Assembly (NCBI GenBank): GCA_947473045.1
Contig: CANJCO010000006.1
Span: 1 to 64,000 of the forward strand
Reading direction: 5' to 3'
From: Myxococcales bacterium
Lineage (GTDB): Bacteria; Myxococcota_A; Polyangia; Polyangiales; Polyangiaceae
DNA length: 64,000 nucleotides
The translations under genes and the position numbers were made by a program. Positions 8,790 through 58,013 of the stretch are shown here, piece after piece (within the stretch, counting starts at the first letter, position 1; every line of letters begins with the position of its first letter). The notes beneath the pieces were generated by a model. That model was not told where the DNA came from and did not search any database. It was given only the letters and a program-made list of their open reading frames with translations.

Positions 8790-10056
8790 TTTGTTCACAA
8801 ACTGCGGCGGTATCACCTCACCCAACCCGTTTTGGCTCGCGTCCGCGCCTCCCGCCAACAGCGGCGCGCAAATTCAGCGGGCGTTCGACGCCGGCTGGGG
8901 CGGCGCAGTGTGGAAGACGCTCGGGCAACCCATTCAGAACGTGTCGAGCCGGTTTGGCGCGACGAACGTCCGGGGGGTGCAAGGCGCGGGATTCAACAAT
9001 ATCGAGCTGATCACCGACCGTTCGCTCGAGATTAACTTCGCCGAGATTTACGACACCAAAAAGAAGTACCCGAAGCACGCCGTGGTGGTCTCGCTCATGG
9101 TCGAGACGAAGCAGGAGTGGAAGGACCTCATCAAGCGGTCCATCGACGCCGGCGCCGACGGCCTCGAGCTGAATTTCGGATGCCCGCACGGCATGTGCGA
9201 GCGCGGAATGGGAAGCGCGGTCGGCCAGGAGCCCCGCGTCAATCAGGAGATCACGTCGTGGGCCGTCGAGTTTTCGAGCGTGCCGGTGCTCGTGAAGCTC
9301 ACGCCAAACGTCTCCGACATTGTCCCTCACGGACTCGCGGCCAAGCGAGGCGGCGCGCACGGCGTGTCGCTCATCAACACCATCAAGAGCATTATCGGCG
9401 TCGACATCGACCGCTACGTGCTCGAGCCGCGCGTCGCGCAGCTGAGCACCAACGGCGGCTACTGCGGCTCCGCAGTGAAGCCAATCGCGCTGCACATGGT
9501 CGCCGCGCTGGCACGTGAACCGAAGTTCGGATTGCCCATCAGCGGCATCGGCGGAATCTCCAACTGGCGCGACGCAGTCGAATTCCTGCTGCTCGGATCG
9601 AGCTCGCTCCAAGTTTGCACGGAGGTCATGCTGCGCGGATATCGGGTCGTCGAAGACATGATCGACGGCCTCGAAGAATACATGCGCACGCACGGATTCG
9701 AGCGCCTCGACCAGATGATCGGCAAGGCAATTCCGAGCTTCTCCGAATGGGGAAATCTCGACTTGAACTACGAGACGGTCGCGAAGATCGACGCCGACAA
9801 ATGCATCGGCTGCCACCTGTGCGTGGTGGCGTGCCACGACGGCGCTCACCAGTGCATTCACCCCGTAAAAGACGGCAAAACGCGGGTGCCCGTGATTGAC
9901 GAGAGCGAATGCGTCGGCTGCAATCTCTGCAAGATTGTCTGCCCGGTCGACGACTGCATCACGATGGTGCAAGTCGACAACGGATTCGCGCCGTCGACGT
10001 GGAATGAGCACGTCACCCAGGGCAAACCGCTTCGCCCCAAAAAAGGCGCTCACTAA
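8782..10056 (+). CDS. preA: NAD-dependent dihydropyrimidine dehydrogenase, PreA-type subunit
   Basis: DHOD-like barrel (SPNPFWLASAPP, ELNFGCPHGM, PVLVKLTPNV) plus C-terminal 2x[4Fe-4S] motifs CIGCHLCVVACHDGAHQC and CVGCNLCKIVCPVDDC; overlaps preT. Confidence 0.95.
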   Translation: MPDLFTNCGGITSPNPFWLASAPPANSGAQIQRAFDAGWGGAVWKTLGQPIQNVSSRFGATNVRGVQGAGFNNIELITDRSLEINFAEIYDTKKKYPKHAVVVSLMVETKQEWKDLIKRSIDAGADGLELNFGCPHGMCERGMGSAVGQEPRVNQEITSWAVEFSSVPVLVKLTPNVSDIVPHGLAAKRGGAHGVSLINTIKSIIGVDIDRYVLEPRVAQLSTNGGYCGSAVKPIALHMVAALAREPKFGLPISGIGGISNWRDAVEFLLLGSSSLQVCTEVMLRGYRVVEDMIDGLEEYMRTHGFERLDQMIGKAIPSFSEWGNLDLNYETVAKIDADKCIGCHLCVVACHDGAHQCIHPVKDGKTRVPVIDESECVGCNLCKIVCPVDDCITMVQVDNGFAPSTWNEHVTQGKPLRPKKGAH

Positions 10057-10200
10057 CAGGCCGTTGAAGAACGGCCTGCTAGCCTTTCATCTCGGGGAGG
10101 TATGCACCTCCCCGCCCCGAAAAACGCGGTTTTTCGGGGTCCCCACCCCACGCAATTGGCTTCGCCAATTACTATCAGGGTGTTTTTCAACACCCTGATA
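10057..10200 (+). repeat. Five-hairpin intergenic repeat, copy A
   Basis: Consecutive perfect palindromes: 10057-10078 (CAGGCCGTT-GAAG-AACGGCCTG), 10093-10114 (CGGGGAGGT-ATGC-ACCTCCCCG), 10115-10139 (CCCCGAAAAAC-GCG-GTTTTTCGGGG), 10154-10170 (AATTGGC-TTC-GCCAATT), 10173-10200 (TATCAGGGTGTT-TTTC-AACACCCTGATA). Similar copies at 48216 and 57868. Confidence 0.95.
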
Positions 10201-10289
10201 AACTCACTAAGCAGGTGCCTACGAGCCGTGACCGAGGTGAACCGGTCAGCCGCCTGCCAGTCTTTCAAACCCGACGCCACGAGGAAACC

Positions 10290-19027: not shown

Positions 19028-19075
19028 CGAAAATTGCGTGTGGCGACGCACTTCACGAGGCTATCGTACCCGCCC

Positions 19076-19702
19076 ATGCGCAGAGGTTCCGTAGCCGTCG
19101 TCCTCGCGCTGGCTGTGGCTTCCGCGGCTTGCGCAGGGTCGCGCGTGCCCGACGCGAAGACCGCGATTGAGGCCTACGCGCGCGCTGCGGAGAGCGGCGA
19201 CAGCGACGCTCTGTACGGCATGATGACGGAGGCCTCTCAGCGCGGCCTGACGCAGGCGCAGTTGCGCGAAGCAGTGTTGGCCGAGCGCGCCGAACTTGCG
19301 GAGCAAGCGCGCGGTCTGACCGGGAGCGACGCGAGCGTGAAAGCGATCGCGCGGCTGCGTTTCGAAGACGGCGAAGAGGCCGCCCTCGCCCTCGAGGAAG
19401 GTCGCTTTCGCGTTTCGGCGGCGGGCGCCCTGCCCGGCGGCGGACGCACTCCCGAGGAGGCGCTCGATCAGCTGCGGCGCGTGCTCGCGAGGCGCAGCTA
19501 CGCCGGGCTGATGCGCGTGGTGACGCCGCAAACGCGGGCGCTTATCGAGCGCGATTTGCGCTCGCTCGTGGAGGGCCTCGAGAAATCCGACACGCTGTCT
19601 CCTCAGATCACGGGCGACTCGGCGACCGTCAAGGTGCCGGGTGGCCATCAGGTGCGCCTGCGCCGGGACGGTGCGATCTGGCGCGTCGACGACTTTGACT
19701 AG
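19076..19702 (+). CDS. Hypothetical lipoprotein
   Basis: MRRGSVAVVLALAVASAACAGS signal/lipobox; downstream ATG chosen over 19034. Confidence 0.65.
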   Translation: MRRGSVAVVLALAVASAACAGSRVPDAKTAIEAYARAAESGDSDALYGMMTEASQRGLTQAQLREAVLAERAELAEQARGLTGSDASVKAIARLRFEDGEEAALALEEGRFRVSAAGALPGGGRTPEEALDQLRRVLARRSYAGLMRVVTPQTRALIERDLRSLVEGLEKSDTLSPQITGDSATVKVPGGHQVRLRRDGAIWRVDDFD

Positions 19703-19743
19703 CAGGACGTTGAAGCAGCGGCCTGCCAGCGCCAAGCCGCTGG
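19703..19743 (+). repeat. Solo terminal hairpin related to the five-hairpin repeat (copy D)
   Basis: CAGGACGTTGAAGCAGCGGCCTGC differs by one base from the terminal hairpin of copy B (CAGGCCGTTGAAGCAGCGGCCTGC on the minus strand); fills the gap between two convergent stop codons. Confidence 0.8.
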
Positions 19744-48215: not shown

Positions 48216-48359
48216 CAGGGCGCGCGAAAAACACCCTGCCAGGAATTGGCGAAGCCAATTGCGTGGGGTGGGGACCGGCGAAAAACCGCGTTTTTCGGGG
48301 CGGGGAGGTGCATACCTCCCCGAGATGAAAGGCTAGCAGGCCGCTGCTTCAACGGCCTG
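48216..48359 (-). repeat. Five-hairpin intergenic repeat, copy B (inverted)
   Basis: Inverted relative to copy A: 48244-48260 (AATTGGC-GAA-GCCAATT), 48279-48297 (CGAAAAAC-CGC-GTTTTTCG), 48301-48322 (CGGGGAGGT-GCAT-ACCTCCCCG), 48337-48359 (CAGGCCG...CGGCCTG); spacers GCGTGGGGTGGGGACC and AGATGAAAGGCTAG match copy A. Confidence 0.95.
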
Positions 48360-57867: not shown

Positions 57868-58013
57868 CTGGCAGGCCATTCAACAGCGGCCTGCCAGCCT
57901 TTCATCTCGGGGAGGCATGCGCCTCGCCGAGATGAAGAACGCGGTTTTTCAGGGGCCCCACCTTACGCAATTGGCTTCGCCAATCCCTGGCAGGGTGTTT
58001 TTCGAGCCCCCTG
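57868..58013 (+). repeat. Five-hairpin intergenic repeat, copy C (diverged)
   Basis: 57868-57897 (CTGGCAGGCC-N10-GGCCTGCCAG), 57902-57935 (TCATCTCGG-g-GAGGC-ATGC-GCCTC-g-CCGAGATGA), GAAGAAC-GCG-GTTTTTC, 57970-57984 (ATTGGC-TTC-GCCAAT), terminal CAGGGTGTTTTTC...CCCTG; same order as copy A. Confidence 0.93.

Follow-up and report, generated by a model that had tools for sequence, protein, structure and literature searches.

Non-autonomous DNA transposons (MITEs) of the IS5 family are short and intergenic, lack a transposase gene, reach high copy numbers, duplicate a YTAR target and end in terminal inverted repeats matching those of an insertion sequence (IS). Correia/NEMIS, RUP and other small bacterial MITEs are 100-200 bp long and structured, are mobilised in trans and duplicate their target, and usually fold into a single end-to-end stem (PMC2229807). 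The CIR elements of Caulobacter and Brucella combine stem-loop arms with a linker, are intergenic and conserved between genera, and feature a GANTC motif but no proven mobility (PMC2229807). REP and BIME elements, often associated with a RAYT transposase, consist of palindromic units with a GTAG or CGTC tag and prefer gene 3' ends and convergent gene pairs (PMC3733652).

The element at positions 10057-10197 of the window, referring to the whole stretch of 64,000 nucleotides that was analysed, shares the listed features of IS5-family MITEs but forms five separate hairpins instead of one long terminal-repeat hairpin, has an interior that was not derived from the IS found, and carries a core common to MITEs with other terminal repeats. 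It is unrelated to the Correia/NEMIS and RUP group in sequence and host, differs from CIR elements in its strong evidence of mobility and in its linker TCCCCACCCCACGC, and differs from REPs in its DDE-type target duplication and the absence of a Y1 gene from the genome. We read it as a MITE moved by an IS5-family transposase into YTAR sites, with a core inherited by a wider set of MITEs (probability about 0.93). The initial annotation had offered a MITE-like element as one option, and this was borne out by what was observed: terminal inverted repeats, target duplication, two empty sites, some 150 copies with identical young members, and a partner IS with matching ends and target. Such MITEs are a known kind; this family and its shared core are new, as judged against Rfam and against known MITEs by their descriptions.

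Architecture of the copy behind the preA-like gene

Copy A and its parts are as follows.

10053-10056, plus strand: left target-site duplication CTAA, which includes TAA, the stop of the preA-like gene upstream
10057-10197, plus strand: MITE copy A, of the young 141-bp subfamily
10057-10078, plus strand: H1, the left terminal inverted repeat as a hairpin, CAGGCCGTTGAAGAACGGCCTG, 9-bp stem, loop of 4
10086-10154, plus strand: conserved core, TTCATC with H2, H3 and linker (covariance model R1, 85.4 bits, E 1.9e-22)
10093-10114, plus strand: hairpin H2, CGGGGAGGT ATGC ACCTCCCCG, 9 bp, loop of 4
10115-10139, plus strand: hairpin H3, CCCCGAAAAAC GCG GTTTTTCGGGG, 11 bp, loop of 3
10140-10153, plus strand: conserved unpaired linker TCCCCACCCCACGC
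10154-10170, plus strand: hairpin H4, AATTGGC TTC GCCAATT, 7 bp, loop of 3
10176-10197, plus strand: H5, the right terminal inverted repeat as a hairpin (complement CAGGGTGTTGAAAAACACCCTG), 9 bp, or 12 bp including the outer TAT/ATA
10198-10201, plus strand: right flank ATAA, the second copy of the target, differing from CTAA in one base

Single-strand folding of copy A returned exactly these five hairpins in this order, with -76.6 kcal/mol as RNA (z -9.8) and -51.2 as single-stranded DNA (z -12.4) relative to dinucleotide shuffles, of which 0 of 200 folded as well; the fold is far beyond chance. Five consecutive hairpins directly after the preA stop codon had been described at the outset and were found again, the element proper being 10057-10197. 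The stem lengths then given as 9, 9, 11, 7 and 12 stand for the first four, while the fifth is 9 bp and reaches 12 only with TAT/ATA. The stop codon adjoins the element because it belongs to the YTAR target site. With the base A at the start of an ATAR right flank, CTAT-H5-ATAG becomes a perfect palindrome, the outcome expected from template-switch correction.

Copies, target sites and the candidate transposase

The same ordered parts, reported earlier at 48216 (inverted) and 57868, indeed recur in the window with the bounds below, and a solitary terminal hairpin lies between them and copy A.

19699-19730, plus strand: solo H1 hairpin CTAG-CAGGACGTTGAAGCAGCGGCCTG-CCAG, a one-ended remnant that begins at the stop codon of ORF 19034-19702
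48216-48359, minus strand: MITE copy B, older 144-bp subfamily, flanks CTAA/CTAG, between convergent rhomboid-like and pdxA genes, empty site in the same-genus genome G001
57872-58013, plus strand: MITE copy C, older subfamily, flanks CTGG/CTAG, empty site in G001

The initial annotation had left room for an element without further copies. In the draft host genome (5,150,796 bp, 138 contigs) the H4 core gave 149 matches at up to 2 mismatches versus 0 in the reversed control, corresponding to about 150 copies of 141-144 bp with no transposase gene inside. Copy A is a member of a young 141-bp group; copies B and C fall into an older 144-bp group that has diverged. Many copies share 99-100% identity and lie at contig ends; among 56 sampled young loci, where a pair of loci may in some cases be a single copy broken across two contigs, 45 showed no difference from the consensus over the available stretch. 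Since so many copies are identical, the transposition burst is recent, and in practical terms these near-identical copies occupy very many contig ends of the draft genome. No match to the element was obtained on phages, plasmids or viral contigs.

Further variants were seen among the copies. A third subfamily in the host (L126, L127, L128, L340) has CTAT after H1 and AGCAGGG before H5, and nested or tandem insertions (L015, L060, L345) place extra hairpins or whole elements within or abutting older copies. A 98% identical copy from a different genus lies at the end of a small contig of 4,965 bp (L062, G006:C52), reflecting either recent horizontal transfer or contamination.

The terminal inverted repeats are hairpin-shaped and about 16 bp long (CAGGNYGTTGAARAAC), paired as CAGGCCGTTGAAGAAC and CAGGGTGTTGAAAAAC. 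Alignment of the flanks revealed sharp borders, with CAGG...CCTG inside and YTAR outside, and the target duplication is the 4-bp YTAR (CTAA, CTAG or TTAG). Identical 4-bp flanks were found in 11 of the 18 young copies having both flanks, namely CTAG, CTAA, TTAG and once CCAG. The flanks of the remaining 7 are non-identical, several with CTAR on the left and ATAR on the right, where only the first base of the right flank differs; this may result from template-switch correction or, alternatively, from duplication of 3 bp, the end base being variable. The CTAR/ATAR arrangement occurs in copy A and at L012, L022, L023, L103 and L113.

Both older loci could be compared with G001, where the element is absent and a single CTAG is present: TGA-GCGA-CTAG-CTCTC corresponds to TGA-CGC-CTGG-[element]-CTAG at locus C, and AACC-CTAG-TTCAAG to GCG-CCTAA-[element]-CTAG-TTGAGG at locus B. 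The elements were therefore inserted at CTAG with duplication of the target. For copy A no empty site was found, as the preA synteny is not kept in the relatives searched. Mobility is thus well supported by comparative evidence.

The only transposase of matching type in the host genome is an IS5-family DDE enzyme, present in one assembled copy.

G000:C83:9569-10907: partner IS of 1339 bp on contig C83, encoding a 366-aa transposase

This protein scored 273 bits with the NCBIfam model NF033581 (IS5_4; cut-off 140) and contains PF05598, PF01609 and PF13751. IS1182 was rejected as the partner family, its model giving 199 bits, below its NCBIfam cut-off of 270, whereas IS5_4 lies above its own. 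The C83 IS ends in CAGGACGTTGAGAAAC and CAGGGTGTTGAAATTC, has CTAA on both sides and shares about 12-14 bases with the MITE ends; the MITE interior is not derived from it. Among 40 related transposase loci in named genomes, 33 showed CAGGNYGNTGAARAA-type ends on both sides; identical 4-bp flanks, all YTAR, are present at 24 of these. Insertion of IS5 has been reported to be accompanied by the target-site motif YTAR (PMC10359306).

Because the same genome holds an IS with matching ends and target, the evidence that the C83 enzyme family mobilises the element is strong but indirect. The transposase of this separate IS would recognise the roughly 16-bp hairpin-shaped ends, and insertion into YTAR tetranucleotides would duplicate the four bases; we infer that either the C83 enzyme or a lost close relative acts here by cut-and-paste chemistry. 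The true helper could also be another IS, lost or unassembled, as only one transposase copy is assembled and the match to its IS ends extends over just 12-14 bases. In other genomes bearing the core, no IS5_4 (NF033581) match exceeded the family cut-off, and a tblastn search around the cores of other genera, with the C83 enzyme as query, recovered only a 50-aa fragment (74% identity; L075) beside a solo hairpin in G011.

A conserved core with differing ends

A covariance model built from other genera alone detected the H2-H3 hairpins and the linker in 27 of the 110 genomes, representing 14 of 49 genera, of the family (probably Polyangiaceae), and scored copies A, B and C at 85, 70 and 46 bits, respectively. 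In a phylum-wide search of 387 genomes, 13 matched, all but two inside this family. The outer hairpins vary by genome, being CAGG..GTTGAA here, CAGGCTGCTGAA in G005, CTCRAGAGCTGTCGA in G022 and CTRAATGACCGAGC in G111 and G116, and different again in G023, G037 and G049. Divergence from a single repeat is plausible for some of these types, but not obvious for the ends in G111 and G116. No literature on repeat elements of Polyangiaceae was found.

Two relatives deserve description. In G022, a related element with the ends CTCRAGAGCTGTCGA and CTGAAGGTCTGTCAA (L229, L246-L251, L325) is present in at least 45 copies, and this genome has no NF033581 match. In the MITE type of G116, G111 and G114, the 3' arm of the left hairpin mirrors the stop codon of the neighbouring gene, whichever it is (L244, L245, L256, L257, L306, L307, L310, L313, L314), as in CTAAATG..CATTTAG, CTGAATG..CATTCAG and CTAGATG..CATCTAG.

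The interiors of MITEs are usually passive and decaying. A paired-hairpin interior with a single-stranded linker that lasts over 14 genera while the ends differ makes a selected structural core in small transposons testable. Under the MITE reading, the H2-H3-linker interior would have passed to a broader group of this family's MITEs, whose terminal repeats differ. It is possible, although we hold it somewhat less probable than the opposite, that the core is a functional DNA module, such as a transposition enhancer or a host-protein site in folded or cruciform DNA, selectively retained family-wide and fitted with several transposon ends as a reusable MITE chassis. The conserved unpaired linker suggests sequence-specific binding, and as a working guess it may be a putative site for a host factor or the transposase.

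Pairing in the core is strongly maintained: 97.9% of cells are paired, with 5 double-change pairs versus 2.0 in shuffled controls on an alignment made from sequence only, and with 16 of 19 pairs on a 77-row alignment that, having been fitted to the structure, leans toward it and would favour G-U if anything. In a helix under selection as RNA, G-U would be expected to be tolerated far better than A-C. The stems contain 17 G-U and 16 A-C cells outside the host genome, and 25 and 29 overall. As the two kinds of cell are equally common, the data are suggestive, though not proof, of maintenance at the DNA level rather than as RNA; such maintenance does not account for the conserved unpaired linker. 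The stems would probably stay paired through selection on hairpin or cruciform DNA, through template-switch correction of imperfect palindromes, or both. The G-U argument has been used for transcription in the REP literature (PMC3733652), and one proposal is that hairpins arise and persist through template switching (PMC8794818).

It is unlikely that MITEs carry the H2-H3-linker core as a structured non-coding RNA. Strong compensatory changes and an unpaired linker conserved over 14 genera would fit such an RNA; the equality of G-U and A-C does not, the core occurs in both orientations relative to genes, and template switching, as proposed in PMC8794818, can make and keep paired hairpins. Rfam searches at gathering and permissive thresholds gave only chance-level matches, agreeing with the earlier statement that no named ncRNA was recognised and yielding, as far as Rfam reaches, no described family. 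In a palindromic mobile element, compensatory base changes are by themselves no proof of a functional RNA. On visual inspection of alignments A2-A5, pairing of the H3 loop (GCGTGG) with the linker (CCACGC) as a pseudoknot is perfect in some species, but changes in the loop are not mirrored in the linker, and the pseudoknot was rejected.

Position at gene ends

Long flanks are available for 29 host copies; at 14 of them an ORF on each side ends toward the element, and at 3 neither side has an ORF that does. The corresponding values are 20% and 36% for control YTAR sites and 7% and 66% for random positions. The YTAR preference thus explains the gene-end location at least partly, and selection against insertions into promoters and genes probably accounts for the remainder. 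According to the MITE reading, YTAR would often include a stop codon in a GC-rich genome, so that insertion duplicates the stop and the reading frame stays intact, while selection would remove insertions harming promoters or genes; copies would accumulate at gene 3' ends because of both. At L067, L079, L087, L088 and L243, the left terminal hairpin is missing and the core starts (TCATC) right after a YTAR stop codon.

The element might instead have been kept as a bidirectional transcription terminator or a 3'-end RNA element that regulates genes, its numbers raised by selection and its mobility incidental; the initial annotation had considered both a multi-hairpin bidirectional terminator and a 3'-end RNA-stabilising element. 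The stable hairpins and the placement of 14 of 29 copies between ORFs ending toward them, with 3 of 29 lacking such an ORF, agree with this. It is nevertheless improbable: a scan for the intrinsic-terminator consensus, a GC stem followed by a T-run, found 0 sites on both strands of the element, the orientation relative to genes shows no strong preference (left 21, right 19), and the 4-bp target duplications and empty sites demonstrate insertion. The terminator option is further weakened by the gene-end position following partly from YTAR, and the RNA-stabilising option is left without positive support, G-U and A-C being equally frequent in the stems.

That a Y1 (RAYT) transposase mobilises the element in the manner of a REP/BIME is very improbable indeed: the solo 22-bp palindromes with CTAG-like tetranucleotide flanks and the gene-end location resemble REPs, but no Y1_Tnp gene (PF01797, Y1/RAYT) is present in the host genome, on which ground Y1/IS200-605/REP mobilisation was rejected, neither end has the GTAG or CGTC tag of REPs (PMC3733652), and the YTAR flanks are genuinely duplicated, in line with the initial non-recognition as REP/BIME.

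Solo H1 hairpins, REP-like one-ended remnants with nothing else of the element remaining, were observed at 19699-19730 of the window and at L329, L331, L334, L335, L339, L341 and L344, and perhaps represent deletions between the inner and outer CTAG.
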